Below the pieces are notes generated by a model. The model ran no database searches. It was given only the letters and a program-made list of their open reading frames with translations, and was not told the DNA's origin. A stretch of 64,000 nt of DNA from Riemerella anatipestifer (GTDB lineage: Bacteria; Bacteroidota; Bacteroidia; Flavobacteriales; Weeksellaceae), in contig NZ_CP142016.1 of NCBI RefSeq assembly GCF_035666175.1, positions 1,364,001 through 1,428,000 of the forward strand. Direction: 5' to 3'. Positions 8,188-49,006 of this stretch are shown in pieces (positions within the stretch are counted from its first letter, which is position 1; each line of letters begins with the position of its first letter). Position numbers and translations under genes: made by a program.

Positions 8188-9131
8188 TGAAAGTCAATAA
8201 TAACTCGGACAGCAAATGTTGAGTAAAATAAGGTATATCCACCTCAGAATCCTCATCAAAATAACCTTCATCCACAAGTATCTCTTTATATTTCTCAGGG
8301 TTTTCTTGAATTAAATGCCAGTTTTGTTTAAACACCTGAATTTCCTCTTCACTCCGAAAGCCCTTCACACCAACAATTTCTATAAATTCTTCCAGCAGTT
8401 TTTCTGGAGCTTCTTCTACTGATTTTACAAATTTCCCTTGGTTTTTCTCTGTAACAATCTCAAACTCATTACAAACAATTTCTACAGCTTCAGTAAAAGC
8501 TTTTAAATAGTACTTTTCGTACTCATTTTGTGTATTCACATCAAGAACTTTAGCCTCAACAACTGTCTCAAACGGAGGAAGACACGGATTTAAATTATAA
8601 AAAACAGCCACATTCATTGTCCCGTCTTCATAATACGACGGAATCAGATAAAACATCAGCCCCAATGTCTTAAAATATTTTTTAAATTCTCCAAATGATG
8701 GAACTCCAAAATACATTAAAATCAAGTTATATTCGCCATCATTCTTTTTATCTTCATCTGATAAAAAACCAATATTAAAAGGCTCTAAAAATGTTTTTTC
8801 ATACGGTTCAAATATATTTTTTGCCTTTATCTTTTTTAGACTAGCTTTATCTTCCTCTGGATTATCACTTTCAAAAGACGAAGGATAATAGGTATATTCT
8901 AAAACTATATCAGATTTGAACTGGGGCGTATTAGGCTTTATACTTTGTTGCCAATGACAGTCAGGCTCCTCCATAAATCGCACAATATCAGGAAGAGCTT
9001 TAAAACTTTCTAAAGTCATATTATTACTTTTAGGGTTAATCCTAGATTTTTTAAATATTTTAAATAGATTTTTCAAATTTTCTAAAATCATCTTTTACCT
9101 TCAGGTCAGTCACAAAAATATAAAATTTATC

Positions 9132-9139
9132 TATCTTTG
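9132..9139 (+). promoter_or_regulatory. -7 box of folC
   Basis: TATCTTTG, an exact TAnnTTTG match, 14 bases ahead of the folC ATG. No clear -33 TTG. Confidence 0.6.
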
Positions 9140-9153
9140 AATAAAAATAAATC

Positions 9154-10401
9154 ATGTTCACTACAGAAGAATATCAAAGTGCTTTGGAATGGCTGTTCAC
9201 ACAAATGCCCAACTACCAAATAGATGGACAAAAAGCTTACAAACCAGGACTAGATAACATAAAAAAACTTTGCGATTTTTTCGGAAACCCTCAAAACAAA
9301 TTAAAAACAATACACATAGGCGGAACTAATGGTAAAGGCTCTACAAGCAATATGTTAGCATCCGTACTTCAAGAACAGGGTTACAAAGTGGGGCTTTACA
9401 ACTCCCCACACCTCGTAGAGTTTACAGAAAGAATAAAAGTAAACGGCACCAACGCAAACAAAAGCTTTGTTTTTGATTTTATCAATAAACTCAAAAACCT
9501 CCCTAAGGATATTAAACCTTCCTTTTTTGAGTTTACCACTATAATGGCATTTCAATATTTTTATGAACAAAAGGTAGATTTTGCCATTATAGAAGTCGGT
9601 CTCGGTGGACGATTAGACGCTACTAACATTATCTCTCCTTTAGTGTCCGCCATTACCAATATTGCGCTAGATCACCAAAACCTTTTAGGAGAGACATTGG
9701 AAGAAATAGCTACAGAAAAAGCTGGAATAATTAAACCCAAAACCACCATCATCTGCGGCGAAGAACAGCCAGAAATAAAAAAAGTAATACAAGAAAATGC
9801 CCAATCCAAGGAAGCTAATTTCATAGACGCCACTTCCATAGCAACCCCATACAAAACTGATTTAAAGGGCGATTGTCAAAAGAAAAACATTCGTGTTGTG
9901 ATAGAAATTATACAAGAATTAAAAAAATTAGGCTTCCAAATTTCTGAACAATCTATTGAGAATGGACTGCTTAATGTTCATAATAATACCAAATTTATGG
10001 GACGCTGGTTTGAGGTTTCTAAAAACCCTCTCGTCGTCTGCGATACAGGACACAACCACGCTGGTTTAACCGAAGTTTTTAAACAACTGAATGCCATACC
10101 AAAGAAAAAACATATTGTGATAGGCTTCGTAAATGATAAAAAAATAGAACCTGTATTCGATCTAACCTCACCAAAAGACTGTTATTACTTTGTAAAACCT
10201 CAAATAAACAGAGGACTTCCCCCAAAAAACTACGAGAATTTAATCCAAAATAAGGGTTTAAACTACCAAATTTTTGACGATGTAAATGAAGGCTACAATG
10301 CTGCGAAACGCTTATGCAAAGCAGATGAGATGATTTTTATTGGTGGAAGTAATTTTGTTGTAGGAGATTTTTTAGAAAAAAATTTGCCAGTTAATAAATA
10401 A
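9154..10401 (+). CDS. folC: Bifunctional folylpolyglutamate synthase/dihydrofolate synthase
   Basis: 415 aa Mur-ligase-like enzyme that adds glutamate to dihydropteroate or to folates with ATP in the cytosol. The P-loop GGTNGKGST is at residues 56-64, followed by the omega-loop region SPHLVEFTERIKVNG and the metal-binding IALDH segment near 170. The C-terminal domain contains the DTGHNHAG motif. Length is normal for the family. The gene stands alone and its last codons overlap the promoter of the two tRNA-Val genes. Confidence 0.96.
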   Translation: MFTTEEYQSALEWLFTQMPNYQIDGQKAYKPGLDNIKKLCDFFGNPQNKLKTIHIGGTNGKGSTSNMLASVLQEQGYKVGLYNSPHLVEFTERIKVNGTNANKSFVFDFINKLKNLPKDIKPSFFEFTTIMAFQYFYEQKVDFAIIEVGLGGRLDATNIISPLVSAITNIALDHQNLLGETLEEIATEKAGIIKPKTTIICGEEQPEIKKVIQENAQSKEANFIDATSIATPYKTDLKGDCQKKNIRVVIEIIQELKKLGFQISEQSIENGLLNVHNNTKFMGRWFEVSKNPLVVCDTGHNHAGLTEVFKQLNAIPKKKHIVIGFVNDKKIEPVFDLTSPKDCYYFVKPQINRGLPPKNYENLIQNKGLNYQIFDDVNEGYNAAKRLCKADEMIFIGGSNFVVGDFLEKNLPVNK

Positions 10402-10413
10402 CTCGTATATTTG
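10383..10413 (+). promoter_or_regulatory. Promoter of the tRNA-Val pair
   Basis: TTTG at 10383-10386, a 19-bp spacer, then TATATTTG at 10406-10413: a full consensus match. It lies within and just after the 3' end of folC, 22 bases ahead of the first tRNA. Confidence 0.85.
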
Positions 10414-10435
10414 CACCACTCAAATGAGAAATTTA

Positions 10436-10510
10436 GGGCGGTTAGCTCAGTTGGTTCAGAGCATCTGGTTTACACCCAGAGGGTCGGGGGTTCGAATCCC
10501 TCATCGCCCA
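10436..10510 (+). tRNA. tRNA-Val (anticodon UAC)
   Basis: Cloverleaf with acceptor GGGCGGT/ATCGCCC (one G-U pair), discriminator A and an encoded CCA at 10511-10513. Anticodon stem TCTGG/CCAGA with loop TTTACAC gives anticodon TAC. T-loop GTTCGAATC is present. Confidence 0.95.
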
Positions 10511-10516
10511 CCAAAA

Positions 10517-10591
10517 GGGTTCTTAGCTCAGTTGGTTCAGAGCATCTGGTTTACACCCAGAGGGTCGGGGGTTCGAATCCCTCAGAACCCA
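10517..10591 (+). tRNA. tRNA-Val (anticodon UAC), second copy
   Basis: Identical to the first tRNA-Val from the D-arm through the T-arm, but with a different, fully paired acceptor stem GGGTTCT/AGAACCC. No CCA is encoded after discriminator A. Six bases follow the CCA of the first gene, so both are probably one transcript. Confidence 0.95.
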
Positions 10592-10600
10592 CTTTAAAAT

Positions 10601-10632
10601 AAAAATCTTACAACAATGTGAGATTTTTATTT
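10601..10632 (+). terminator. Terminator after the tRNA-Val pair (probably bidirectional)
   Basis: AAAAATCTTAC pairs with GTGAGATTTTT around a 6-nt loop and is followed by a T-rich tail. It also serves the convergent truncated integrase at 10646. Confidence 0.8.
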
Positions 10633-10645
10633 ATTCATTCCTCTA

Positions 10646-11308
10646 TCAATAATACTTTACTGGATTATGTTCTTCAAAAGGATTAGATTCTAAATATTTC
10701 TGAATAACAGCCTGTTTAACTACTTTTTTAAATCTCTGTAAAGACTTATTAATAGTAACCTGCTGATGCTTTAATTCAGTCTTAGAGTAATATTCAAACT
10801 CTGTAATAAAGTTAAAATCTAAATCTTTTAGCTTAATATCAGATTTTTTGTAATAAAATTTTATGAACTCTTTTACATCATCTCTGATATAGCTGAATTT
10901 ATCCCAAGTCTGCTTTTTAATCTCTACATCTATAAGTTTTTTCAGTTTCTCAAGATATATTTCATAATATTCTAACACACCATATTCTCTAGCTAAAGTT
11001 TCTCCTTTATATTGTGTATAGATGTCATTTACATCAAATTTTTCTTCCTTAACTTGAAGGAATAAAAAAGCCTGATTAATGTTATTCTTAATCAGGCTTA
11101 ATTGTGTATTGATAAAGTTGTTTTCTTCATTGGGTGGTTTTGCAAGCTGTTTCTTACTATCCCAATTATTAGGATTGATGAATAATCCTATAGAGAATAC
11201 TTTTCTCTCTTGTAGATATGTCACCCTGCACCTTAAAGGTGCTATGCCTTTTGAATTTGTATTAACTTTATCCAATACAAATAGTATGTTCAATTTATTA
11301 TTATTCAT
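10646..11308 (-). pseudogene. Truncated tyrosine recombinase (N-terminal half only)
   Basis: 220 aa. Residues 1-100 look like the arm-type DNA-binding domain of Bacteroidota integrases (ILFVLDKVN, APLRCRVTY, FINPNNWD), and 105-215 like the SAM-like core-binding domain. The frame stops (NPVKYY) before any catalytic residue: there is no R...HxxR...Y domain. Family members are about 400 aa. It lies between tRNA-Val and tRNA-Asn genes, typical targets of such integrases, so it is probably the remnant of an integrated element. A role as a DNA-binding protein cannot be excluded. Confidence 0.8.
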
Positions 11309-11465
11309 GTTGTTATAAGATTTTAGAGGGTATGACTTTTAGAAAATTAGGGTATGCCTTTTTTTGTGCCTTTTTATCTAAAAAAACTAGGATGAAATAA
11401 TGACTTAAAGACTATGAGAAAGACATTAAGTTATGAGATAACTTGCAGATATAGAGCTACAAAAC

Positions 11466-11498
11466 AAAAAAAAGACCTACATTTCTGTAAGTCTTTTT
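11466..11498 (-). terminator. Terminator after tRNA-Asn (bidirectional)
   Basis: A 12-bp stem (AAAAAGACCTAC with GTAAGTCTTTTT, one G-U) with a 6-nt loop and T/A tails on both sides, directly after the tRNA-Asn 3' end. Confidence 0.8.
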
Positions 11499-11499
11499 G

Positions 11500-11573
11500 C
11501 TCCTCCTGCTGGGCTCGAACCAGCGACCCTCTGATTAACAGTCAGATGCTCTAACCAACTGAGCTAAGGAGGA
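11500..11573 (-). tRNA. tRNA-Asn (anticodon GUU)
   Basis: Minus strand: acceptor TCCTCCT/AGGAGGA, discriminator G, D-arm AGCTCAGTTGGTTAGAGC, anticodon loop TGTTAAT (GTT), T-arm with GGTTCGAGC. CCA is not encoded. Confidence 0.95.
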
Positions 11574-11597
11574 ATGGTTTGTTGTTTTTTCGTGGTG

Positions 11598-11605
11598 CAA
11601 ATATA
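11598..11605 (-). promoter_or_regulatory. -7 box of tRNA-Asn
   Basis: Minus strand TATATTTG, exact TAnnTTTG, 24 bases ahead of the tRNA. A TTTG lies 21 bp further upstream. Confidence 0.7.
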
Positions 11606-11644
11606 GAAACTTTTTCTAATATCTTCCAAATTTATTTTTAAAAT

Positions 11645-12976
11645 TTATTTAAAAATTTTAAAAATGTCGCTTCCAATAATGAGTAGCATCAATCCCATAA
11701 GAAAAATTACTCCTATGGTTTGAGCATTTTCAAGCACTTTTTGAGGTACAGGTTTTCCTGTGATAACTTCCCATAGAGTAAACATAACATGCCCACCATC
11801 TAAACCTGGTATAGGCAGTAAATTAAGAAATGCCAACCATACCGAAAACATAGCAGTAAACGCCCAAAATGCTTCCCAATTGATAGAGGTTGGCATCATT
11901 TTAACGATACCTATTGGTCCAGACACTTTTTTATAACCTTGTGTCTTTTGGTTGAAAATAATTTTGAACTGTTTTACTTGCATTACTAGAGCGTCTATTG
12001 TTCTTTCTTGCCCTCTAGGTATAGCTTGTAGTAAACTGTACTCCTTGTTTACTAATGTACTATTAAGTGATTTTAGTCTCTCTTCTTCGTTGGGAGTAAA
12101 GCCAATTTTTCCGTCCTTATTTACCGTAATAGTTTGCTTCAATAGATTTCCATTTCTCAGAACTTCAATTTCTGTCGTTTGATTTTTAAGGTTTTTAAGT
12201 ATAGAGGCAAGATTGTCAAAATACTTTATAGGAGTATTGTTTATACCAACTATTTTGTCTCCTTTTTTAAGTTGAGCCTTTTGTGCAGGACTATTGGGTG
12301 AAATACTATCTATAACCACAGGGAATCTAGCAGAGTAGATTGCTCTAACTTCATTAGCTTTCATAACTTCTGCTACACCATCTTCATTAGTAGGAAAAGT
12401 AACCTCTTTGCCTTCTCTAAGTACGGTAATTTCATTTGATAATAGTAAGTTTATCATAGAATTTTCCATTCTTTCGGCAGGTTTTCCATCTATGGCAACT
12501 ATTTTGTCTCCATTTTGCAATCCCATCTTTTGGGCAGCCTCACTTACGGCTATTCCGTCCTCAAACTTGCTATTATCGTGGTAAGTTTCTCCATTAAAAA
12601 AGCTAAGACAAGAATAAATAAACCAAGCTAAAAAGAAATTCACAGTAACACCACCTAGCATAATGATAAGCCTTTGCCAAGCAGGTTTAGAACGAAACTC
12701 CCAAGGTTGTGCTGATTTTTTAAGTTGTTCGGTATCCATACTTTCGTCTACCATACCTGCTATTTTTACATAGCCTCCGAACGGAAGCCAACCTATACCA
12801 TATTCTGTTTCTCCAATTTTCTTTTTAACAACAGAAAACCAAGGGTCAAAGAAAAGATAAAACTTCTCGACTTTGGTCTTAAAATATTTAGCTGGAATAA
12901 AATGTCCTAACTCATGCAAGGTAACTAAAATTGAAATACTAAGAACAAATTGAAATATTTGGGTTAACAAATCCAT
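11645..12976 (-). CDS. rseP: RIP metalloprotease RseP (site-2 protease)
   Basis: 443 aa zinc membrane protease of the S2P family that cleaves transmembrane segments such as anti-sigma factors. HELGH at residues 21-25 gives the zinc ligands, and LNLLPIPGLDGGH in the C-terminal membrane part supplies the LDG motif. Two PDZ-like domains lie between them (around KMGLQNGDKIVAIDG and QLKKGDKIVGIN). Hydrophobic segments occur at the N-terminus, around residue 105 and at the C-terminus. Single gene with its own -7 box. Confidence 0.96.
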   Translation of the reverse strand: MDLLTQIFQFVLSISILVTLHELGHFIPAKYFKTKVEKFYLFFDPWFSVVKKKIGETEYGIGWLPFGGYVKIAGMVDESMDTEQLKKSAQPWEFRSKPAWQRLIIMLGGVTVNFFLAWFIYSCLSFFNGETYHDNSKFEDGIAVSEAAQKMGLQNGDKIVAIDGKPAERMENSMINLLLSNEITVLREGKEVTFPTNEDGVAEVMKANEVRAIYSARFPVVIDSISPNSPAQKAQLKKGDKIVGINNTPIKYFDNLASILKNLKNQTTEIEVLRNGNLLKQTITVNKDGKIGFTPNEEERLKSLNSTLVNKEYSLLQAIPRGQERTIDALVMQVKQFKIIFNQKTQGYKKVSGPIGIVKMMPTSINWEAFWAFTAMFSVWLAFLNLLPIPGLDGGHVMFTLWEVITGKPVPQKVLENAQTIGVIFLMGLMLLIIGSDIFKIFK

Positions 12977-13002
12977 GCTGTATTTTTTGTTTTAAATTCG
13001 TG

Positions 13003-13010
13003 CAAAGGTA
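13003..13010 (-). promoter_or_regulatory. -7 box of rseP
   Basis: Minus strand TACCTTTG (exact consensus), 26 bases ahead of the rseP ATG. Confidence 0.65.
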
Positions 13011-13032
13011 ATAAACTAAAATGATTTAGAAT

Positions 13033-13062
13033 AAAAAAGAGACTACCAAAGGTAATCTCTTT
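13033..13062 (-). terminator. Terminator of the 13085 gene
   Basis: Minus strand AGAGATTACC/GGTAGTCTCT hairpin (one G-U pair) followed by TTTTTT, 20 bases after the stop of the small outer-membrane protein gene and just ahead of the rseP promoter. Confidence 0.8.
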
Positions 13063-13084
13063 CTAATGATGTTGATGGACTTAC

Positions 13085-13513
13085 TTATAAGTTGATAGAA
13101 ACTCCTAGTCCTCCGTTATTACCAATTTCGGCAAAAACTCCTAAATTTTTATTGAAGAAATATCTTGCATCAATGTGTGCTCCTAGCCCAAAACCATGTC
13201 CTAATACGCCTATATCTAAGCCAGGGTAAATATCTAATTGGTCTGGAAGATTAAGGGCGTCTTGCAAATGATAATTTGCTCTACCGAATAAGAAAAAACC
13301 ATTGTCTTTTTTGTTGTTGAAATAGAAATGAGCACCAGCTCCTAAAGAGATAGCATTTGTAACTCCGTAGTCATAAGTACCAGATAGCCCTGAGCCATAG
13401 CCCCAAGCGGAAAGTCCTATTTGAAGTTTTTGGTCTCCTTTTCCATTCCAAGCCTGTGCAAACGAAAACTGAGCTAGCACAACTGTCATTAAAATTAAAA
13501 TTGTTTTTTTCAT
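13085..13513 (-). CDS. Small outer-membrane beta-barrel protein
   Basis: 142 aa with a clear signal peptide (cleavage after FSFAQ). The mature part alternates hydrophobic and polar residues in short Gly-rich strands (LQIGLSAWGYGSG, AISLGAGAHFYF, GLGAHIDARYFF), as in small beta-barrels, and ends with the hydrophobic strand GLGVSINL. I take it for a DUF6646-type protein of Flavobacteriia; function unknown. Monocistronic: -7 box at 13543-13550 and terminator at 13033-13062. Confidence 0.75.
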   Translation of the reverse strand: MKKTILILMTVVLAQFSFAQAWNGKGDQKLQIGLSAWGYGSGLSGTYDYGVTNAISLGAGAHFYFNNKKDNGFFLFGRANYHLQDALNLPDQLDIYPGLDIGVLGHGFGLGAHIDARYFFNKNLGVFAEIGNNGGLGVSINL

Positions 13514-18222: not shown

Positions 18223-18771
18223 ATGCGTACAGAAGTTTTATTACAGACCTTAGAGTTGCAAATTAAAGAAGCTATAATAACAGCTGAAATTCTTAAAACT
18301 AAAGACCCAGATTACCTTACTTGGAAACCACAGGAACACTCGTGGAATATATTAGAATGTGTAGAACACCTTAACCTATATGGCGATTTTTACCTCCCCG
18401 AATTTGAATTAAAAATAAAATCCTCTCATACCATACCAGAGGCAGATTTCAAAAGTGGTTGGTTGGGAGGCTATTTTGCAAAAAGGATATTGCCAAACCC
18501 CAAAAGCAAAATGAGAACTGCAAAGAGTAAAAACCCAATCAACAAAAACCTAGATAAATCGGTTTTAGAACGATTTATTTATCAGCAAGAGCGGTTTTTA
18601 GAGTTGCTAAATTTATCTAAAAGCATCAGCTTAAGCAGAACGAAAATAAATATTTCCATTTCTAAATGGATAAAATTACGACTAGGAGATGGTTTTATGT
18701 TCTATGTCAATCATATTTTAAGACATTTATATCAGATAGAAAATATACAATCGGCTTATAATGAAAATTAA
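18223..18771 (+). CDS. DinB family protein
   Basis: 182 aa. Four-helix-bundle DinB/YfiT-type protein: the N-terminal helix, then WKPQEHSWNILECVEHLNLYGDFYLPEF with the first metal-binding His (ECVEHL), and a C-terminal HILRHLYQIENIQ helix with the other histidines. Members bind a divalent metal and some are thiol transferases; the substrate here is unknown. Directly downstream of the Crp-like gene, which may control it. Confidence 0.82.
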   Translation: MRTEVLLQTLELQIKEAIITAEILKTKDPDYLTWKPQEHSWNILECVEHLNLYGDFYLPEFELKIKSSHTIPEADFKSGWLGGYFAKRILPNPKSKMRTAKSKNPINKNLDKSVLERFIYQQERFLELLNLSKSISLSRTKINISISKWIKLRLGDGFMFYVNHILRHLYQIENIQSAYNEN

Positions 18772-18804
18772 ACAGTGTTTAATGTTAAACACTGTTTAAT
18801 TTTT
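18767..18804 (+). terminator. Terminator of the uvrB-crp-dinB stretch
   Basis: A perfect 16-bp inverted repeat (ATTAAACAGTGTTTAA) with a 2-nt centre and a TTTTT tail. Its left arm includes the dinB stop codon. Confidence 0.88.
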
Positions 18805-18808
18805 GACT

Positions 18809-18835
18809 GTATTTTAAGTTTAAAATACTGTTTTT
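18809..18835 (+). terminator. Second hairpin after dinB
   Basis: GTATTTTAA/TTAAAATAC perfect 9-bp repeat followed by TGTTTTT, immediately after the first terminator; a tandem terminator is likely. A further AT palindrome follows at about 18838-18852. Confidence 0.55.
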
Positions 18836-18892
18836 AAGTATATATATACTATATGGAATTATTTTAATTTTTAAACAAATTTTATTTTATAG

Positions 18893-18921
18893 TTGTTGTT
18901 TAAAAAAAAGTTCTATATTTG
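18893..18921 (+). promoter_or_regulatory. Promoter of the FadL-like/SGNH gene pair
   Basis: TTG at 18893-18895, 18-bp spacer, TATATTTG at 18914-18921 (exact -7 box), 23 bases ahead of the ATG. Confidence 0.75.
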
Positions 18922-18944
18922 AAAACTTTAATTAACATAATTTT

Positions 18945-20180
18945 ATGAAAAAAATAATATTAACAACGGCAGTATTGTGCGGTATGTTAGCTCAAGCAGG
19001 AGGTTTTAGAGTTTCTTTGCAAGGGGTAAAACAGTTGGCTATGGCGCATACAAGTGCTCACGCAGAAGATGCGAGTGTGGCTTTCTTTAATCCCGCAGGT
19101 ATATCCTTCATTCCGTCCAAACTAAGTGTTGTAGCAGGAGGCTTTGGTGCATTATCTAGCGTAACTTATCAGAATTTAAACACTTTAAACTCTTACACTA
19201 CCGATAACCCTTTAGGAACGCCTTTCTATGCGGCGGCAGCTTATAAGGTAACAGATGATGTTTCGTTAGGGCTTAGCGTTACCACACCTTTTGGAAGCAC
19301 CGTACAGTGGGGCGAAGATTGGGCAGGGAAGGAAATAGTGCAAAAAATGCAACTGAAAAGTATTTTCTTTCAGCCAATGGTTTCTGTAAAGTTAGCCAAT
19401 TGGGTATCTCTAGGGGCAAGTTATATCTATGCTAAAGGTTCCGTAAACTGGGACAAAGCGGTAACTAGCGTTAATGGAACTATGAACATTAAAGATGAAA
19501 AAGCGTCAGGGCAAGGTTTCTCGTTTGGTTTTTACTTTAAACCTGATGAAAAGTGGGACGTTAGTGTAGCTTACCGTTCGCCAGTGGATATGAAAGCTAA
19601 TAGCGGGAAAGTTTCGTTTAATATGCCGAAAAGTTTATATACTCTAAAGGAACTTGATGCTAATGGACAAGACAATTTTAAAGCAACATTACCTCTAGTA
19701 GATGAGTACACCATAGGAGCAACCTATAAGATTACACCTAAATGGTTAGTTTCTGCGGATTTTAATTATACAGGCTGGTCAGAGTACAGCCACCTAGCGT
19801 TAGATTTTGAAAACGCTAAACTTGGCAACCAGCCTAATGATGCCACCCTACTTGTTACACCTAAGAATTTCAAAAACACTCAAACTTGGCGTTTCGGAAC
19901 CCAATATATGGTAACGGATAAAATAGCAGCCAGACTAGGTTATTACTATGATGAATCTCCCTATACAGACAAAGATTTTATCCCAGAAACCCCATCGTTT
20001 AACTCTAGTGTTGTTACAGCAGGTTTAGGATTTAAACTAAACAAAGTAGGGATAGATTTAGCAGGTGCAATGGCTTTTCCACAAGCGAGAACAGTAGCTA
20101 ATGATTATTATAGTTTTTATGGACAGGCTAAGGCTAAAGCAGTATATTTTGGTTTAGGTCTATCTTACAACCCTTTTTAA
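18945..20180 (+). CDS. OmpP1/FadL/TodX family outer membrane transport protein
   Basis: 411 aa with a signal peptide and the FadL-type N-terminus: after cleavage near AQAGG come FRVSLQGVKQLAMAHTSAHAEDASVAFFNPAG, which forms the plug motif (split here: NPAG is the family signature). Beta-strands fill the rest and the protein ends in the aromatic strand VYFGLGLSYNPF. The family lets hydrophobic compounds such as fatty acids cross the outer membrane. It starts 12 bases ahead of an SGNH lipoprotein gene and is likely cotranscribed with it. Confidence 0.88.
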   Translation: MKKIILTTAVLCGMLAQAGGFRVSLQGVKQLAMAHTSAHAEDASVAFFNPAGISFIPSKLSVVAGGFGALSSVTYQNLNTLNSYTTDNPLGTPFYAAAAYKVTDDVSLGLSVTTPFGSTVQWGEDWAGKEIVQKMQLKSIFFQPMVSVKLANWVSLGASYIYAKGSVNWDKAVTSVNGTMNIKDEKASGQGFSFGFYFKPDEKWDVSVAYRSPVDMKANSGKVSFNMPKSLYTLKELDANGQDNFKATLPLVDEYTIGATYKITPKWLVSADFNYTGWSEYSHLALDFENAKLGNQPNDATLLVTPKNFKNTQTWRFGTQYMVTDKIAARLGYYYDESPYTDKDFIPETPSFNSSVVTAGLGFKLNKVGIDLAGAMAFPQARTVANDYYSFYGQAKAKAVYFGLGLSYNPF

Positions 20181-36302: not shown

Positions 36303-37282
36303 ACTCGTTGTGCATTTTAAATAATACTGATTTTTAGATGATTTAATTTTCTTTGGAAGATAAATTTATTGATATATTGAATAACCGTTGCGGCGGTTAT
36401 TTTACTGATTATCCTTGTTTTAAAGCCTTCAAAAGTTTTAGCATAGTTTCTTTTAATCATAAATTGGTCGCAAAGTTGAGAGAAAAATGTCTCAATTCGT
36501 TTTCGCTTTTTCTTGTACAATGAAAATTGAGGAATATAATCTTTCTGATTACTTCTCATTGGTGTATCTAATTTAATATTAGCATAGTTAAATAAATCTA
36601 TTTGAACTTTTGCTGATAAATAGCCTCTATCTCCAATTAAAGTACAGTTTCGCATTTGCTCACCAATATCTTTTAAATAGTGGATGTCGTGAACGGATGC
36701 AGGGCTTATATCAAAATTCTTAATCACACCATTTAAAGAACATACTGCGTGTAGTTTATAGCCATAGAAATATAATTTCTGTGAAGCACAATAACCATAT
36801 GTTGGTGAAGAATAGGATTGCTCTTTACAAATTTTTGAACGAGTAGAACGAGCGTTTTCACAAACTTTCATTGGCATGCTATCAACGATAAAAATATCTT
36901 CAAACTCATTGAACTCCATCGAAATACGCTGTCTAATTTGCTCTGTTTGTAGGGATAGTCTTCGTTTTCGCTTATTGTAAACACTTCTTTCAATTTTGTT
37001 TATCAGAGAGTTTGGCAATTTTCTAAATAACTGTAATTCGCTATCAATACTCAAGTATTCAGCAGTAATATTAAGACTTATGACTTCTAAATCGCTCATT
37101 TTAGGTGTTCTTCTCTGATAACTAATCAGTTGATTTTCTGAAAAAAGTCCTAAAACTTCCAAAATTCTTTCATATATTTGCTCTATGTTGTTCATTTATA
37201 TCGTTTTATAGCAAAAACAATATACTTATTTTCAGTCTAATAAACAACTCTTGTTTTTTTCATTTCATAATGCACAACGGGT
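36303..37282 (-). mobile_element. IS982-family insertion sequence, copy 2 (980 bp)
   Basis: Ends ACTCGTTGTGCATT (36303) and ACCCGTTGTGCATT (complement, ending 37282). Flanked by an 8-bp direct repeat TGTTTTTA (36295-36302 and 37283-37290). Transposase intact. Confidence 0.93.
36317..37195 (-). CDS. IS982-family transposase
   Basis: 292 aa, full length. Carries the DDE-type transposase core: the first Asp in FIVDSMPMKVC, the second in LIGDRGYLSAKVQ, and the Glu in KKRKRIETFFSQLCDQF. The N-terminal part (LSENQLISYQRRTPKMSDLEVISL) is typical of IS982 members. This copy lacks the frameshift of copy 1 and can be the source of active transposase. Confidence 0.96.
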   Translation of the reverse strand: MNNIEQIYERILEVLGLFSENQLISYQRRTPKMSDLEVISLNITAEYLSIDSELQLFRKLPNSLINKIERSVYNKRKRRLSLQTEQIRQRISMEFNEFEDIFIVDSMPMKVCENARSTRSKICKEQSYSSPTYGYCASQKLYFYGYKLHAVCSLNGVIKNFDISPASVHDIHYLKDIGEQMRNCTLIGDRGYLSAKVQIDLFNYANIKLDTPMRSNQKDYIPQFSLYKKKRKRIETFFSQLCDQFMIKRNYAKTFEGFKTRIISKITAATVIQYINKFIFQRKLNHLKISII

Positions 37283-38161: not shown

Positions 38162-39382
38162 ATGAAGATAGCCTTTGAGTTAAGAAAAGAAAAAATGAAT
38201 CAAAATGGTTTAATACCTATACAGATTAGCGTTAGACATAATGGTAAAAGAATTCGAAAAAACACTGGACACTCGGTACTTGAGCACCATTGGAACGGAT
38301 ATAGAGTTAAGCCTAATCTAAAGAAGGAAAAGGATAATAATTACCAACTTATCAATCAAGATTTACAAGAAATAGAAGAAAAGATAAGCAGGTTATTTCT
38401 TTTTCTTAAAGCTAATGATATTCAATTTTCCACTGAAAGATTCAATGAATTTGAAACTAAAAATGAATTATCAGAAAACTCTATCGATTTTTTTTAATGT
38501 TTTGATGATTATATCGAAAAAGGGAAGCTTACAAAAACTCCTAATACGATAAAGGGACAAACGACAGTGAAAAATTTTTTAGGATATTTCTGCAAAGAAG
38601 AACATATTTCACTTTCCTTTGATAAAGTTAATAATGAATTTTTTGAATCGTTGAGAAATTATTCTTTTGAAGTAAAGAAAATGAAACAAAACTATTTTGC
38701 TAAAGTGATAAAAGTTTTAAAATCATTTTTAAATTGGGCTACTGAAAAAGGCTATAATACCAATCGAGATTTTGAAAAATTTAGAGCAGTCGAACATGAT
38801 ATAGATATTGTTTATCTGACCTTTGATGAATTGATGAAATTATATGAAAAAGAATTTGAATCGGATAAACTTTCTCAAGTAAGAGATTTCTATTGTATGG
38901 GATGTTTTACAGGATTAAGGTTCTCCGATTTATCGAAACTGCATTTAGCCAATATTTCTGAAGACCACATTATCCTTTCAATACAAAAGACTAAAACCCA
39001 GAATCACGCAATTAAACTTAACAAATACGCAAAGACTATATTGGAAAAATATAAAGGGACAATTCATGAACCTTTGCCTGTTATTTCTTCTCAAAAGTTT
39101 AATCAGTATATCAAAGATTGTTGTGAGGAAGCAGAAATTACACAACCATTTACTATTCATTGGTTTGTAGGAAATCAGAAAAAAACACTTACTCAGCCAA
39201 AATGTAAATTCATTACAAGTCATACAGCACGAAAAACCTTTATTACTAATTCTCTTCTGTTGGGAATGGAACCGAAAGCCATTAAAAAGATTGCCAATAT
39301 TAAAAAAGATGCAGTATTGGATAAATATATGAAAGTAACGGAAGTATTTACCGACGAACAAATGGACAAAGCTTGGGGATAA
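38162..39382 (+). pseudogene. Tyrosine recombinase/integrase with nonsense mutation
   Basis: The reading frame is open from ATG 38162 to TAA 39382 (406 codons) except for one TAA at 38495-38497; frame is kept on both sides, so GAA to TAA is the simplest cause. Arm-binding domain (1-100), SAM-like core-binding domain (about 125-215), then the catalytic domain with Arg in FTGLRFSDL, HTAR (SHTARKTF) and Tyr in LDKYMKVTE. All catalytic residues survive downstream, and a restart at 38567 would yield 271 aa without the arm-binding domain. Confidence 0.9.
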
Positions 39383-41993: not shown

Positions 41994-42124
41994 AAAAATT
42001 AAAATTAAGACATTGATTATCAAATATATATCGATTAAATAGAGACTATAAAATAGTTAAGCGGGTAATTTCCAACCTTTGTACTGACAATAAAGTCATA
42101 ATCGTTTAACTAAAATCAATTAAA

Positions 42125-42403
42125 ATGTCAGTACAACTTTATTCACATTCCAAATCCGATTTGGAAAAGGCGGTTGAAATCATTCTGAAGAAAGCAACCG
42201 AATTCACATTACCATCTAAAAAGGTAGAAGAAAGTCCAGAAGATTTGGTATCACAAATCGAGGCTTCTAAATTTTTGCAAATTTCCGTTCCTACCATTAT
42301 AGATTGGAGGAAAAATAAAAATTTACCTCATTATAATTTTAATGGGAGGTATTATTATTCAATTAAAGAGCTTCTTGAATATGGAAAAGGCAAGAGAAAG
42401 TAA
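42125..42403 (+). CDS. Excisionase-like helix-turn-helix protein
   Basis: 92 aa. The C-terminal half is a MerR/Xis-type HTH_17 domain: VSQIEASKFLQISVPTIIDWRKNKNLPHYNFNGRYYYS (key residues I-A-F-L, S-x-x-T-I, W, and the wing Y-F-N-G-R-Y-Y-Y). Such proteins in Bacteroidota mobile elements act as excision or replication regulators. Located ahead of the primase-helicase gene. Confidence 0.82.
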   Translation: MSVQLYSHSKSDLEKAVEIILKKATEFTLPSKKVEESPEDLVSQIEASKFLQISVPTIIDWRKNKNLPHYNFNGRYYYSIKELLEYGKGKRK

Positions 42404-42449
42404 TATTTCAGATTGTCTAGCACATAATTTTTAACATTAAACTTTAAAA

Positions 42450-43676
42450 ATGAATAATAATATTCCTTACATCCGAGTTGGAACAATTTATTACAAACTG
42501 ATTGAGCGTCCACAAATTTCAGGACATTCCACGGTAACTCTTGCCAAGTGGTCAAGAGAAATCATTATCCAAGATCATGGAAAGAAATACATTTATAATA
42601 TTCCAAAATACGATGGATTTTGCTGTATTCCAAATCATTTAGGATACAAGAAAACTATTGGAAACTTCTACAATATGTACAAGGAAATACCGATACAACC
42701 AGTACTTGCAAAAGTAAGCATTGAGGAAATTCCCTACTCTATCTCTTTTTTAGAACATATTTTTGGGAAGCAGATTGACTTAGGTTTGGATTACTTGAAA
42801 ATCCTATTACAAAAACCAGTACAGGTTTTGCCAATTCTCTGCTTAGTAAGTAAAGAACGAGCAACAGGGAAATCCACTTTTCTAAAATGGCTTAAAGAAA
42901 TCTTTGGACTGAATATGACTTACATTAAAGGTGATTCATTTAATAGCCAGTTCAATTCAGACTGGGCTTCGATGTTACTCATTGCAATCGATGAAGTTTT
43001 CTTTGATAAAAAAGAAATTACCGAACGACTGAAATACCTTTCTACGACCAATAAAGATAAATTAGAGAACAAAGGCAAAGATCGGGAGGAAATAGATTTC
43101 TTCGGTAAATTCATTCTTTGTTCCAATAATGAAGACAACTTCATTCAGATTGATGAGAACGAAATCCGATTTTGGGTGCTTAAAATTAATCCTATAAAAT
43201 CTGAAAACACGGAGTTTTTAGAAAATTTGAAAAGGGAGATTCCATTATTCCTAAGATTCTTAATTGACCGACTTTTTTTCTCTCCGAGGAAAACAAGAAT
43301 GTGGTTTGAATCATCCGACATTAAGACTAAGGCATTGCAAAAGTTAGTTTTCAAAAACGGAAATAAATTGGAAAGCAAAATGGTGGAACTGTTTTATGAA
43401 TTCTTTGAATCGAATGAAGATCAAGAAATCAATGTTGTCCCACAGGACATTCTGAATATGATTAACCGAATGTTCAAGCAAACTTATTACACAAGAAATG
43501 AGGTAAGAAACATTTTGAAGAACAAATGGGAACTAGAGCCACAAAAGAATGGTTTAGCCTATATAAGATACGATATTGATTACACTGGAAACTTCTGCCA
43601 AAATAATTCTGTAGGAAGATATTTTAACATTTCCAGAAATTTCATTTTAAAAAAATATGTTGATTTGTTAAGCTAA
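42450..43676 (+). CDS. Primase-helicase family protein (SF3-like ATPase)
   Basis: 408 aa. The central ATPase has Walker A SKERATGKST (residues 134-143) and Walker B-like MLLIAIDEVFF, followed by a possible sensor segment FILCSNNEDNF. The C-terminal part resembles a winged-helix DNA-binding region (FKQTYYTRNEVRNILKNKWELEP). Proteins of this type unwind the origin of mobile elements and plasmids. It lies directly upstream of the iteron-like cluster at 43711-43864. Confidence 0.83.
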   Translation: MNNNIPYIRVGTIYYKLIERPQISGHSTVTLAKWSREIIIQDHGKKYIYNIPKYDGFCCIPNHLGYKKTIGNFYNMYKEIPIQPVLAKVSIEEIPYSISFLEHIFGKQIDLGLDYLKILLQKPVQVLPILCLVSKERATGKSTFLKWLKEIFGLNMTYIKGDSFNSQFNSDWASMLLIAIDEVFFDKKEITERLKYLSTTNKDKLENKGKDREEIDFFGKFILCSNNEDNFIQIDENEIRFWVLKINPIKSENTEFLENLKREIPLFLRFLIDRLFFSPRKTRMWFESSDIKTKALQKLVFKNGNKLESKMVELFYEFFESNEDQEINVVPQDILNMINRMFKQTYYTRNEVRNILKNKWELEPQKNGLAYIRYDIDYTGNFCQNNSVGRYFNISRNFILKKYVDLLS

Positions 43677-43710
43677 TTGCTTAATAAAAAGAAAATCAAA
43701 TAATTACTCA

Positions 43711-43864
43711 TTCAACAAAATCCTCAACAAACTTAAAATCTTACTGCTTTGTTGAGCGTTTGTTGAGCATAAAAATCCAATTTTGTTGAATTGTTGAGAC
43801 TTTGTTGAGTTGATAAATATTTATCAATCAGAATATTATTGATTTCACTCAACAATTCAACAAA
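43711..43864. repeat. Iteron-like cluster, candidate replication origin
   Basis: Nine copies of TTTGTTGAG or a one-base variant in 154 bp. Forward copies begin at 43748, 43759, 43782, 43790 and 43801; inverted copies lie at 43711-43719, 43723-43731, 43848-43856 and 43856-43864. Between the forward group and the right-hand inverted copies is an AT-rich stretch with the perfect 18-bp palindrome TTGATAAATATTTATCAA (43810-43827). The region is non-coding and sits between the helicase and primase genes. Confidence 0.7.
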
Positions 43865-43959
43865 AAAATCTAATGATAAACCTATCACAAATCTCCAATT
43901 CACATCCAACGAAAATTTAACATTTCAAAAAATCAATCAACAACTAAAAACACAGAAAA

Positions 43960-44875
43960 ATGAATTGCAAACAAGCCAATGAAAATATCAGCATTAGAGA
44001 AGTGATGGAAAGCTTTTCTCTTTCACCGAGCAAAGAACATCCGAAAACCGCTTACTATTATGCTGTCAACCGACAAGAACGCACACCAAGTCTTTTGGTT
44101 AATTATGTAAAAAATACAGCTTTTGATTTTGGTACAGGAAAACAATACGATGTCGTATCCATTGTTCAAGAACTTAAACAATGTTCGGTATCTGATGCCC
44201 TTGAATATCTCAAACGCTTTGACTTTTCTTTTCAAAAGCAAAAAGAACTTTTAATGAAGAATCGTCAAGAAAGAAAAACTTATCAAATTTTAGAAGTAAA
44301 AGAAGTTTCGCATCCTGCACTTTTGGATTATTTGAAAGACAGAAATCTTGAAACTCAAAAATCAGAACTAAAAGAAATCCATTATCAAATTGAAGACAAA
44401 ACCTACTTTGCTGTTGCCTTCAAAAATGATTCTAGAGGATATGAAATTAGGAACAAATATATGAAGATAGCCTTGGGTAAAAAAGATATTACTTCTGTTA
44501 AAAACAACTCCAATACAAAAGCTCAAACATTAAAAATATTTGAAGGCTTTAGCGATTATTTGTCCTATCTCACTCTCAAAAATGAAGACCAAAATTTCAA
44601 AGACGAGGCTTCCGATTTCGTGATTTTAAATTTCTTTTCAATGGCTTTTTAAAATTGAAAAATCATTGGAAAATTATCAAAAGATTGAATTGTATTTGGA
44701 TAATGACAGAGCTGGAGATTTACTCGCAGAAAAGTTAAACAAACTTCATTCTAATGTTATCGACCAAAGAAATCAACACAAAGATTTTAAAGATTTGAAT
44801 GAATATTTAATCTCAAAAAAATCAGAAGAGCAAATTCATATTGAAGAGAAACCAACTTACAAAATGAGACGGTAA
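43960..44875 (+). pseudogene. CHC2/Toprim-type DNA primase, frameshifted
   Basis: The first frame (43960-44652, 230 aa) has a CHC2-like N-terminal fold without cysteines (RTPSLLVNYVKNTAFDFGTG, VSIVQEL) and the first Toprim motif FEGFSDYLSYL. It stops just after SMAF. The next frame picks up at about 44640 with KIEKSLENYQKIELYLDNDRAG, the second Toprim motif (D-x-D), and ends at 44875. One extra base at about 44643-44644 explains the break (ATGG-CTTTTT where ATG-CTTTTT would stay in frame). The catalytic Toprim domain is therefore split. Confidence 0.83.
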
Positions 44876-44897
44876 ATTTTACGCTTAGTCTTAGTGC

Positions 44898-44973
44898 AAA
44901 AAGTACGCAAAGTTTACCATAAGCATACGCAAATGGGAACTTTCCACTTTTTGGTTTCTCCTGTCGTCGAAAC
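44898..44973. other. Candidate oriT region
   Basis: Three inverted repeats in 76 bp upstream of mobC: AAAAAGT/ACTTTTT (44898-44904, 44946-44952), nested AAAGTT/AACTTT (44909-44914, 44938-44943), and GTTTC/GAAAC (44954-44958, 44969-44973). oriT sites are usually next to relaxase genes and contain such repeats. No nic site can be assigned from sequence alone. Confidence 0.4.
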
Positions 44974-45067
44974 GGAATTAATGAAAAAGAGTAAAATAGA
45001 TGTAATTCAAATTTTCAATCAATGCTCAGAATTAATTACTAAAAAAAATGAAACAGACAAAATTTAA
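44933..45067 (+). CDS. Small hypothetical protein (44 aa)
   Basis: ATG 44933 to TAA 45067, start MGTFHFLVSPVVETELMKK, ending ETDKI. Overlaps the candidate oriT repeats, so it may be chance. No recognisable domain. Confidence 0.25.
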   Translation: MGTFHFLVSPVVETELMKKSKIDVIQIFNQCSELITKKNETDKI

Positions 45068-45085
45068 ACTTAAAAACAACAAAAA

Positions 45086-45535
45086 ATGAAACAAGATTTT
45101 CTAACTGAATTTATAGCCAAAGCCAAAGAAGAGCAAGAGAAGATTCTTGCTTTAGAAAAGAGAAAAAAACACTTTCAAAACATCGGAAGAAAAGGTGGAT
45201 TAGTGAAGAAGAAATCAGATGATTTTTCAAAAATTATTTCAACAAAAGTAACCGAAAAAGAATATCAGAAAATTCAAGAAAAAGCAGAAGAACTTAACCT
45301 TAAACTTTCCCAATATGCACGATTGATTTTAACCGAAAAAGAACTTAAAATCGATGAATTTAAAACCGATGAAATATTACTGCAATATGGTAATCATTTC
45401 ATCAGAATATCCAATCTGCTACGAAACCGAGAATGGAACGAATTTGAAAACAAGAAAGAAATACTGAATGAAATCCAAACCGTGACCAAATTAATCAGAG
45501 AGTATTTATATCAAAAAATCATCGAAAATGAATAA
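45086..45535 (+). CDS. mobC: Mobilization accessory protein MobC
   Basis: 149 aa basic protein. N-terminal Lys/Glu-rich helix, then the RHH-like relaxosome segment VTEKEYQKIQEKAEELNLKLSQYARLILTEK and a C-terminal helical part with NHFIRISNLLRNREWNEFENKKEIL, which fits the MobC pattern (N-x-I-R-x-x-N-L-L). It helps the relaxase bind and open oriT. Overlaps the relaxase gene by 8 bases. Confidence 0.82.
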   Translation: MKQDFLTEFIAKAKEEQEKILALEKRKKHFQNIGRKGGLVKKKSDDFSKIISTKVTEKEYQKIQEKAEELNLKLSQYARLILTEKELKIDEFKTDEILLQYGNHFIRISNLLRNREWNEFENKKEILNEIQTVTKLIREYLYQKIIENE

Positions 45536-46307
45536 TTCAGCAACGACCAGAAGAATCAGTAAGATTGCTATCGAATATAACGGAAATGATAAAGACACAG
45601 CCGAAATGGTGTATTCGAATAATCTTTTATCCGATGATGCAGAATTACAGTTTCAGGAAATGAAATCCGTTACCGAAAGAAATTCAAAAATCAAGAATTG
45701 GGCATTAACTGGATATATCTCTCCAGAGCAAACCAAAGACAATGAAATTTCCAATGAGCAACTTATTGAACTCGCCTTAAAAGCCTTGAAGAAAGTTGGA
45801 GTTACGAGTGATAATCAGATAAGATTGGATATTCATAATTCTACGAAGCATAAACACATTCATTTTGTGGTAAATCGTGTGAACACGAAAGGCATCAATA
45901 CGATTGAAGCTCACAAGATTGGCGAACGCTTCGGAAAAGCTGTGAGAGAAGTCTGCAAAGAAATGAATTTGAAAACAGATATAGAAATAGGTAAAGAGAA
46001 GAAAGAGCAAATGCTACATGATTTGCAGAAAGTTTTAAAAACTGCAAGATCTTTTGAGGAACTAAAAGAGCTAATGAATCAGAGAGATTATCGAGTAACC
46101 TTATCAGAAAATCAGAAAGTAGGTGTTTCGGGAATGCGAATTGTGAAGCACTCGGATATTAATGCCGAAACCAAGAAAGAATATCGAGCAGGATATAAAC
46201 TTTCGGAGATAACGAATAAACTCAAAATCAAGGATATTAAAGAAATGCTGTTGAGTAATCTCCAACAGAGTGAAAATCATCAAATTAACAAAAGCAGATT
46301 TAGATAA
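45528..46307 (+). CDS. Relaxase/mobilization nuclease (MOB-P type)
   Basis: 259 aa. The three-His metal site is H108-K-H110-I-H112 (TKHKHIHFVVNRV), the hallmark of relaxases. The expected catalytic Tyr near the N-terminus is probably Y17 (AIEYNGND). It is shorter than many relaxases, with only a brief C-terminal tail, consistent with a small mobilizable element. Cotranslated with mobC (8-bp overlap) and followed by a membrane protein gene. Confidence 0.85.
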   Translation: MNNSATTRRISKIAIEYNGNDKDTAEMVYSNNLLSDDAELQFQEMKSVTERNSKIKNWALTGYISPEQTKDNEISNEQLIELALKALKKVGVTSDNQIRLDIHNSTKHKHIHFVVNRVNTKGINTIEAHKIGERFGKAVREVCKEMNLKTDIEIGKEKKEQMLHDLQKVLKTARSFEELKELMNQRDYRVTLSENQKVGVSGMRIVKHSDINAETKKEYRAGYKLSEITNKLKIKDIKEMLLSNLQQSENHQINKSRFR

Positions 46308-47286: not shown

Positions 47287-48266
47287 ACTCGTTGTGCATT
47301 TTAAATAATACTGATTTTTAGATGATTTAATTTTCTTTGGAAGATAAATTTATTGATATATTGAATAACCGTTGCGGCGGTTATTTTACTGATTATCCTT
47401 GTTTTAAAGCCTTCAAAAGTTTTAGCATTGTTTCTTTTAATCATAAATTGGTCGCAAAGTTGAGAGAAAAATGTCTCAATTCGTTTTCGCTTTTTCTTGT
47501 ACAATGAAAATTGAGGAATATAATCTTTCTGATTACTTCTCATTGGTGTATCTAATTTAATATTAGCATAGTTAAATAAATCTATTTGAACTTTTGCTGA
47601 TAAATAGCCTCTATCTCCAATTAAAGTACAGTTTCGCATTTGCTCACCAATATCTTTTAAATAGTGGATGTCGTGAACGGATGCAGGGCTTATATCAAAA
47701 TTCTTAATCACACCATTTAAAGAACATACTGCGTGTAGTTTATAGCCATAGAAATATAATTTCTGTGAAGCACAATAACCATATGTTGGTGAAGAATAGG
47801 ATTGCTCTTTACAAATTTTTGAACGAGTAGAACGAGCGTTTTCACAAACTTTCATTGGCATGCTATCAACGATAAAAATATCTTCAAACTCATTGAACTC
47901 CATCGAAATACGCTGTCTAATTTGCTCTGTTTGTAGGGATAGTCTTCGTTTTCGCTTATTGTAAACACTTCTTTCAATTTTGTTTATCAGAGAGTTTGGC
48001 AATTTTCTAAATAACTGTAATTCGCTATCAATACTCAAGTATTCAGCAGTAATATTAAGACTTATGACTTCTAAATCGCTCATTTTAGGTGTTCTTCTCT
48101 GATAACTAATCAGTTGATTTTCTGAAAAAAGTCCTAAAACTTCCAAAATTCTTTCATATATTTGCTCTATGTTGTTCATTTATACCGTTTTATAGCAAAA
48201 ACAATATACTGATTTTCAGTCTAATAAACAACTCTTGTTTTTTTCATTTCATAATGCACAACGGGT
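47287..48266 (-). mobile_element. IS982-family insertion sequence, copy 3 (980 bp)
   Basis: Same ends as copy 2 (ACTCG... at 47287, complement of ACCCG... ending at 48266). The flanks do not match (AGAATA on the left, AACATT on the right), so there is no target duplication: the copy results from recombination or was followed by a deletion. Confidence 0.92.
47301..48179 (-). CDS. IS982-family transposase
   Basis: 292 aa, intact, with the same DDE residues as copy 2 (FIVDSM, LIGDRGY, KRIETFF). It differs from copy 2 by one residue (Asn for Tyr in MIKRNNAKTF). Near-identity of the three copies shows recent spread. Confidence 0.96.
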   Translation of the reverse strand: MNNIEQIYERILEVLGLFSENQLISYQRRTPKMSDLEVISLNITAEYLSIDSELQLFRKLPNSLINKIERSVYNKRKRRLSLQTEQIRQRISMEFNEFEDIFIVDSMPMKVCENARSTRSKICKEQSYSSPTYGYCASQKLYFYGYKLHAVCSLNGVIKNFDISPASVHDIHYLKDIGEQMRNCTLIGDRGYLSAKVQIDLFNYANIKLDTPMRSNQKDYIPQFSLYKKKRKRIETFFSQLCDQFMIKRNNAKTFEGFKTRIISKITAATVIQYINKFIFQRKLNHLKISII

Positions 48267-48286: not shown

Positions 48287-49006
48287 ATGAATACCTTAAA
48301 AGCATGGTTGCGTCCCAACCTACTCACGAAAGATGACCCTAACGATTTTGTAGCCGTACCACTTCTAGGTGGTAGCCTCGGCATTACAGAAATCATAGAA
48401 GCCCTCAAAAAAGAGGGTATGGAGATACAGACCGAAACGGCGGTAGATATTATCACTCGTTTTAACCGCAAAGCCTCGGAGTTGGTACTCAACGGGTATA
48501 GTGTAAATACAGGATTAGTATATATGCGTCCTGCCATTAAGGGCGTATTTTACGATAAGACTTGGGACAAAGAGAAGCACTCCGTTTATGTAAATGTGAA
48601 CCAAGGCACCGACCTAAGAAAAGCCGCCAACGATACCAAAGTAGAAATCCTCGGCGAGCAGTCTAGCCCAATGAGTGTATTCGGTATTACCGACAAAGCT
48701 ACAGGCAAAGCAGACGGCAACCTTACCAAAGGCAAAAACGCCGAAATCAAAGGTACTTATATTAAAATAGACGGCAACAACCCTAAAAATGGTATCGTCT
48801 TTAAAAATCTAGACAACCAAAATGAGGTAAAACTCTCAGCAGAGCATATTGTACTTAATGAGCCGTCAAGGTTACTCATTCTCGTTCCTACGGATTTAGA
48901 AGCAGGTAATTATGAGCTAAGCATCACCACGCAGTATAGCAATAGTAAAACGCTATTAAAAGAACCTAGAACAGAAATGCTAAGTACACCTATCGTGATA
49001 GTTTAA
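48287..49006 (+). CDS. HU-like DNA-binding protein with DUF4469 domain
   Basis: 239 aa. The N-terminal half (1-125: GITEIIEALKKEGMEIQTETAVDIITRFNRKASELVLNGYSVNTGLVY) is the HU-like fold found in Bacteroidota; the C-terminal half (about 130-239) is an Ig-like DUF4469 domain. Nucleoid-associated or DNA-binding role is inferred from the fold. The IS ends 20 bases upstream and no TAnnTTTG box lies between, so its native promoter was probably lost. Strong terminator at 49023. Confidence 0.85.
   Translation: MNTLKAWLRPNLLTKDDPNDFVAVPLLGGSLGITEIIEALKKEGMEIQTETAVDIITRFNRKASELVLNGYSVNTGLVYMRPAIKGVFYDKTWDKEKHSVYVNVNQGTDLRKAANDTKVEILGEQSSPMSVFGITDKATGKADGNLTKGKNAEIKGTYIKIDGNNPKNGIVFKNLDNQNEVKLSAEHIVLNEPSRLLILVPTDLEAGNYELSITTQYSNSKTLLKEPRTEMLSTPIVIV

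Follow-up and report, generated by a model that had tools for sequence, protein, structure and literature searches.

Mobilizable elements of the NBU1 type, found in Bacteroides, carry an integrase, a primase and a relaxase. The element analysed here resembles them in combining these three families in a Bacteroidota host, a likeness drawn from the general description of NBU1 rather than from its sequence. The Prevotella mobilizable transposons likewise encode a relaxase, a primase family protein and an integrase; the available part of their description mentions no iteron origin (PMC4755523), whereas an iteron array is present here. In PICIs, an AT-rich region flanked by two sets of iterons forms the origin, and rep-ori clones replicate autonomously, as described in the accessible portion of PMC6092414. 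In SCCmec of staphylococci, the isolated C-terminal domain of the D5-family helicase Cch2 binds direct repeats downstream of the helicase gene, according to excerpts of PMC7581432.

The window, a 64,000-nt stretch of a Riemerella anatipestifer chromosome, contains a locus with much of this layout. As in the SaPI/PICI rep-ori of the portions available of PMC6092414 and PMC7581432, a putative initiator helicase carries a C-terminal DNA-binding domain (here a predicted one), short iterons lie directly 3′ of the helicase gene (in the window and in 80 of 80 relatives, the best 80 of 131), two sets of iterons surround an AT-rich stretch (here with a core barely AT-richer on average), and a primase is encoded nearby. 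Judged against the same excerpts, the locus differs in that it belongs to a Bacteroidota element that is integrative and mobilizable and has relaxase genes, in that its primase is DnaG-type and follows the array whereas an archaeo-eukaryotic-type primase precedes Rep in SaPI/PICI, and in that its iteron sequences are unlike theirs and a match between residue and base was found. With SCCmec Cch2 it shares a D5-family helicase followed by repeats downstream of its own gene that form a putative origin; the staphylococcal system, as far as excerpted, has iterons of 5 nt (AAGTG) in three copies, and its primase-polymerase is CCPol-MP, in contrast to five to ten copies per array in two sets among the 80 relatives, and a DnaG-type primase, here. 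Two small circular plasmids, pMP1 (NC_012758) and pIsolateG_E (CP135474), have a DUF5906 primase-helicase as their only listed replication gene and repeat families just downstream of it, which weakly supports reading our array as an origin, although the proteins are 26–28% identical over the ATPase core and the repeats are unrelated in sequence and irregularly spaced.

The island and its iteron array

Two IS982 copies that are 99.7% identical (36317-37195 and 47301-48179) bracket the island. A tyrosine integrase is encoded at 38162-39382 (+) by two ORFs with an in-frame stop between them, as seen from Pfam matches and ORF comparison; in all six relatives checked it is a single open frame of 429–445 aa. 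An HTH_17 excisionase-like protein (42125-42403, +; Pfam and phrog_66 matches) precedes the helicase, a 408-aa DUF5906 (D5/SaPI5-Rep-like) protein that we propose to be the replication initiator (42450-43676, +; Pfam DUF5906 E 2.6e-19 and a fold match). The 5′ part of a DnaG-type primase gene follows at 43960-44652 (+), with a TIGR01391 match (E 2.6e-7) far below the curated cut-off and a CHC2 zinc finger under the Pfam cut-off, and since a further piece at 44666-44875 lies in another frame, the gene looks broken. Mobilization genes at 45086-46307 (+) encode, by profile matches, an MbpA/NikA-like accessory protein and an MbpB-like relaxase; the NikA-like and Relaxase matches exceed the Pfam cut-offs, and those to MbpA and MbpB fall under the NCBIfam cut-offs. 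The integrase, primase and relaxase families are thus all present, and the island appears to be an integrative mobilizable element in partial decay. Because both the integrase and the primase ORFs are broken, this copy has probably lost its own mobilisation.

In the congener G742, the left flank and the right (tmRNA) flank of the island lie ∼0.3 Mb apart, which suggests a rearrangement, and IS982 at both ends obscures the boundaries; a search of congeners for an empty site found no place where the flanks are adjacent. Neither of the congeners G549 and G638 yielded the helicase, and the doublet CTCAWCAATTCAWCAAA was absent from all five congeners searched. A gene of 239 aa adjoins the tmRNA at 48287-49006 (+), apparently outside the island. 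It has 11 matches in its own genome (itself, nine full-length at 91–95% and one partial at 69%), and several copies of this dispersed family also occur in the congeners G741, G742 and G638.

The array lies at 43711-43864, after the helicase gene and ahead of the primase gene, as the sequence-only reading had placed it. That reading counted nine copies of TTTGTTGAR within 154 bp; nine copies are indeed present of the 8-mer TTGTTGAR, and the longer 9-mer is exact in seven of them. By 8-mer match, two inverted copies (iteron 1, TTGTTGAA, 43711-43718; iteron 2, TTGTTGAG, 43723-43730; both −) are followed by five direct copies, of which iterons 3, 4, 6 and 7 are TTGTTGAG (43749-43756, 43760-43767, 43791-43798 and 43802-43809; all +) and iteron 5 is TTGTTGAA (43783-43790, +) and forms a doublet with iteron 6. 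After a core of ∼40 bp comes the right doublet, inverted, consisting of iteron 8 (TTGTTGAG, 43848-43855, −) and iteron 9 (TTGTTGAA, 43856-43863, −), so that seven copies stand to the left of the core and two to the right, and the proposed orientation of five direct and four inverted copies was borne out. Iterons 8 and 9 form with iterons 5 and 6 an 18-nt perfect inverted repeat whose arms are 49 nt apart.

Such a cluster stands out from its surroundings. First-order Markov simulations (300 runs of 64 kb) gave a maximum of 1 TTGTTGAR copy per 154 bp in 252 runs, 2 in 46, 3 in one and 0 in one. No other 7-mer cluster in the window is as dense as the array (9 copies per 200 bp, the next unrelated cluster having 6). 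Nor is the motif equally dense elsewhere in the 2.57-Mb genome, the finding that the sequence-only reading had named as counting against it: six pairs of the 8-mer on one strand and no more than 25 bp apart lie in the array and two elsewhere, and a reversed control pattern gave two. The second-densest 7-mer cluster of the window is at 18720-18960 (TGTTTAA/TTAAACA, six copies in 200 bp).

The segment between the two iteron sets (43810-43847), a possible melting region by its A+T count, contains the palindrome TTGATAAATATTTATCAA. The AT-rich core proposed from the sequence is real in the window (32 of 40 positions are A or T), but over the 77 of 81 loci with a recognised core it is only slightly AT-richer than its surroundings, with a mean of 75% A+T vs 73% for the whole 200 bp. 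The palindrome is likewise perfect over 18 bp at 43810-43827, but its supposed part in the layout did not hold up: among the 77 loci it was seen only in the window and in L005, and we discarded it as a conserved element (2 of 77). A Rep_3/RepA-type iteron plasmid origin was also rejected, as none of 10 window proteins had a Rep_3 match in Pfam and the neighbouring gene encodes a DUF5906 ATPase.

Position and motif of the array in related elements

We examined the best 80 of 131 helicase relatives for arrays, and each of the 80 had one in the ∼250 bp that follow the helicase stop. The motif was TTGTTGA in 29 (T-type, counting the frame-broken L066), TTGATGA in 49 (A-type), and TTTGATGCA in two (TGATGCA; L081 and L082), so that 51 of the 80 relatives carry a variant motif, mostly TTTGATGAG. 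A literal search for the 9-mer in relatives, as the sequence-only reading had suggested, would therefore have wrongly spoken against an origin in these 51, in which the motif itself has switched; what it had expected of the array, co-occurrence with the helicase and, in the close relatives, conserved phase, was found, and what it had expected of the motif was found in 29 of 80. Our own count with the literal 9-mer, by which most relatives lacked an array, was overturned by a motif-free k-mer count, which recovered the switched motif with its offsets unchanged.

In the close loci, the copies occupy slots at ∼33 and 45 bp (inverted), 70, 81, 104, 112 and 123 bp (direct), and 170 and 178 bp (inverted) from the stop codon; these offsets are kept, and single slots are often absent. 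The core is 40 bp long in 53 of 77 loci, and the left part of the array is arranged differently in the distant loci L073-L078 and L083. The variable base was identical across all slots of an element in the 80 relatives, mixed arrays occurring only in L073 and L077; one deviant copy, outside the slots, was seen in each of L031, L055 and L079.

The inverted repeat formed by the two doublets, and the paired changes in its arms, which look like RNA covariation, could also be taken for an RNA hairpin (a terminator, attenuator or riboswitch-like element). We regard this as most improbable: the copies outside the stem switch too, the stem is imperfect in the A-type loci read by eye, a search of 42000-45600 against Rfam gave no match, and 43500-44100 contained no terminator-like site.

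Beyond the 80 relatives, whole genomes with more distant helicases had GATGACA-type arrays in L093, L094, L101, L118 and L120, and a AGTTACAAA-type array in L100. In L100, the distant helicase lies in a longer open frame of 769 aa, and the position behind it is taken by an iteron of unrelated type, AGTTACA/TGTAACT in ten copies.

Two or three such elements coexist in several genomes. T- and A-types are mixed within one genome in L005/L036, L010/L017/L080, L011/L018/L055, L019/L032/L046, L022/L048, L025/L034 and L035/L069, and are not mixed in L012/L024, L021/L072 and L030/L045. The contig of L027 bears the label Streptomyces sp. ISL-12; its T-type element is Chryseobacterium-like, and the contig is probably contamination. 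Viral contigs yielded one locus, L124, an A-type helicase and array on a 72-kb IMG/VR contig that may be a chromosomal island called viral. On the plasmid pBUN1 (L084), an island at 6090-13170 with an integrase, a DUF5906 helicase, a toprim gene and a MobV relaxase directly adjoins a class A beta-lactamase gene.

Co-variation of the array with the helicase C-terminal domain

To ask which protein changes with the array, we used 56 non-redundant "Weeksellaceae-type" loci with a helicase >61% identical to that of the window (L068 of these is from Dyadobacter). The family names Weeksellaceae and Bacteroidaceae were deduced from contigs that match and from resemblance to named plasmid genes. In sorting the arrays into classes, A, A(C), A(CA), A? 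and CA were pooled under A. In all, 116 helicases were gathered, 103 after removal of identical ones; L066, L088, L089, L090, L099 and L123 were omitted from their alignment, with L066 kept in the Weeksellaceae-type column comparison. Near-identical rows were removed for the trees (81 rows, 74 reduced to 56, or 108 rows, depending on the tree).

Across the 56 loci, the array was present in 56 and a primase homologue in 55, the sole miss in this search with the L004 primase being L006, whose sequence ends 581 bp past the helicase. The other neighbours of the window's array were found less regularly. HTH_17 proteins are typically excisionases or regulators, and one that bound the array might direct excision or regulation; such a protein is encoded next door to the helicase. 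A homologue, though, accompanies only 16 of the 56 arrays, all of these loci having at least 1 kb of upstream sequence, and proteins 85–88% identical to that of the window occur beside T-type (L014, L007) and A-type (L079, L036) arrays alike, so we give this reading very little credence. The mobilization genes downstream could likewise suggest that the array is an oriT recognised by mobilization proteins. With homologues of the window's own families as the target, MbpA was found in 28 and the relaxase in 27 of the 56 loci, and in 24 and 26 of the 50 loci with at least 3 kb downstream, all 50 of which had a primase; moreover, the array precedes the primase and does not adjoin the mobilization genes. 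An oriT is accordingly very unlikely.

The two halves of the helicase gave different trees. For residues 1-290 (56 rows), the 19 T-class proteins required four changes, and a single clade was rejected (p-AU 0.019). For residues 291-408, the T-class proteins formed one clade with support of 100/99. A mosaic protein, L028, joins the two histories: over residues 1-240 it is 97, 86, 98 and 92% identical per 60 residues to the A-type L031, and over residues 371-408 it is 47% identical to L031, 79% to the T-type L009 and 87% to the T-type L010. From the split trees and this mosaic, the C-terminal domain and the array appear to be inherited together while both flanks recombine. The primase, on the other side of the array, changed class 13 times in its own tree (53 rows), and one T clade was rejected (p-AU 6e-6).

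These trees also bear on whether the array is an operator through which the helicase winged helix or another regulator governs how the primase and mobilization genes are transcribed, and which plays no part as an origin. Its intergenic position upstream of the primase would suit an operator, as would seven promoter-like matches in 43500-44100 vs a mean of 2.6 (sd 1.6) in shuffled sequences. On the other hand, nine sites that span 154 bp as two opposed sets, with a core of near-constant length and a co-varying helicase, fit an origin better, and the primase varies freely with respect to the array. We therefore consider an operator unlikely, if less so than the other alternatives.

The switch tracks the helicase C-terminal domain and not the HTH_17, primase or mobilization proteins, which were dropped as readers of the array. 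Of the two binders that the sequence-only reading had offered, the helicase is thus favoured over the excisionase-like protein. Linkage alone could account for part of the co-inheritance, but by itself neither for switching of all copies nor for the residue match described below. The comparative evidence argues strongly that it is the helicase tail that recognises the array.

The predicted structure of the helicase is compatible with such a role. An AlphaFold2 model built with 52 relatives had a mean pLDDT of only 68 and was weak outside the C-terminal part, but pLDDT was 78–94 per block of ten over residues 311-400. The model, the fold matches and the clade together delimit a predicted winged-helix DNA-binding domain at residues 294-408 (43329-43673, +), which co-varies with the array; its predicted elements are helices at 331-342 and 349-359 (the recognition helix) and wing strands at 369-376 and 382-389. 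The best PDB fold match was 6k9c, the helicase region of NrS-1 (Z 8.4, rmsd 12.4, 271 aligned; Foldseek 4.6e-5), followed by the SaPI5 primase-helicase 7om0 (Z 6.6, rmsd 11.4, 272 aligned), a weak match given its Foldseek E of 1.1. Residues ∼294-408 resemble winged-helix proteins such as SarA 2frh (Z 6.2, rmsd 3.7, 83 aligned), and a Z below 8 may mean only a common arrangement. A PDB sequence search gave no match at E ≤ 0.1.

Residue 368 and a proposed replication module

Several columns of the Weeksellaceae-type C-terminus, 349, 368 and 387 among them, separate the T- and A-classes. Residue 368 (Gly in the window; codon 43551-43553, +) is the best predictor of the variable base: G or A at 368 accompanies T in the array, and S or T accompanies A. 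This rule was obeyed by 56 of 56 Weeksellaceae-type proteins, the discovery set, and by 18 of 18 near-duplicates of that set. It had been suggested by four Bacteroides/Phocaeicola plasmid loci and was fixed before 50 further loci were gathered, which together with the four make up a second family, presumably Bacteroidaceae (54 loci, 47 distinct proteins, the tie L193 dropped). The proteins of this family were mostly new, and residue 368 predicted the base in 47 of 47, the class being a majority call since 23 of the 54 arrays hold both bases (L155, for example, has four T and three A) and some have only two exact copies. The top columns in this family were 368 (MI 1.00) and 388 (MI 0.87). Residue 349, Arg in T-type proteins, was rejected as a general determinant, with Lys in both classes in most second-family proteins. 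Among more distant proteins, the rule held for 19 of 24 rows, one of which, L095, coincides with L154; the exceptions were L077, L096, L097, L098 and L122.

Class and residue also change repeatedly on the trees. Each changes seven times on the second-family tree of residues 1-290, and six times on the second-family C-terminal tree made without columns 349, 368 and 388 (32 rows); on the 108-row tree, class changes 12 times and residue 368 13 times (L100, L193 and L196 were omitted from the latter two trees). In an independent-pairs test on supported branches, 197 of 200 pairings gave four pairs with the same direction, none opposite and one without difference (p 0.125), short of significance because supported switches are few; within the second family, three of three such pairs agreed.

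As an approach that starts from the DNA, we searched 296 genomes, presumably Bacteroidaceae, for the right-hand doublet CTCAWCAATTCAWCAAA without reference to a helicase and found matches in 63. Of 30 loci examined, 26 had an array behind a DUF5906 helicase, with the doublet as the right-hand pair in 22 and as an inverted left-hand pair in four, and in four the match stood alone, the motif occurring two or three times per 500 bp. All 26 arrays obeyed the rule (15 with S and A, 11 with G and T), some of these genomes being already in earlier sets and several loci of the later searches sharing contigs with the first set of relatives. In the model, residue 368 is predicted to lie immediately before the wing strand 369-376, and residue 388 near the end of the strand 382-389.

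Taken together, these results make it quite probable, in our judgment, that the array serves an integrative mobilizable element as its origin of replication, a rep-ori like that of SaPI/PICI, and that the helicase winged helix and the array form an exchangeable specificity cassette. The sequence-only reading of an origin-like array read by an initiator agrees with an array that follows the helicase in every relative examined, keeps fixed offsets in the close ones and changes together with the C-terminal domain. Array position, switching of all copies, co-inheritance with the C-terminal domain and residue-base matching are supported by the comparison; binding, melting and replication are steps that we infer, and origin function is likewise suggested by homology of layout and parts. 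We propose that the DUF5906 helicase, as the product of the adjacent upstream gene, would bind the nine iterons via its C-terminal winged helix, assemble on the two iteron sets beside the AT-rich core, melt the core and load itself. The DnaG-type primase encoded just downstream would prime synthesis by the host polymerase, and the element could thereby copy itself after excision or during transfer. When the specificity of the domain changes, the iterons would change the same base together, with wing residue 368 (together with 388) as the main discriminator, a small G or A reading T and a hydroxylated S or T reading A.

Circular records (L085/L197, L086 and L087) were considered as excised circles and rejected. 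Only parts of them match the integrated islands of the four genomes used for comparison, and a mannose-1-phosphate guanylyltransferase gene in L087 also lies beside islands in G972 and G849; for these reasons they were not used as evidence of circles, and direct evidence of replicating circles was not found.

When 301 genomes of a single family, presumably Bacteroidaceae, were sampled, 46 had the helicase at E ≤ 1e-20. A literature search of open-access papers, most of them by listing alone, found no such origin described in Bacteroidota, and nothing on the iteron specificity of SaPI Rep or on Chryseobacterium iterons. We lean, by a small margin, towards a broader view in which mobilizable elements of Bacteroidota share a widespread SaPI-like self-replication module whose cassette is swapped as a unit and obeys a nearly one-residue code (368 G/A reads TTTGTTGA, S/T reads TTTGATGA), such that one substitution could redirect the initiator to another origin.

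If true, finding this arrangement in a different phylum, and in elements mobilized by conjugation, would imply a module common to several types of element, and replication after excision may occur in many elements of Bacteroidota. The pairing of one residue with one base opens initiator-origin recognition to tests by single substitution, and cassettes swapped in nature point to a route by which elements may change their origin specificity.
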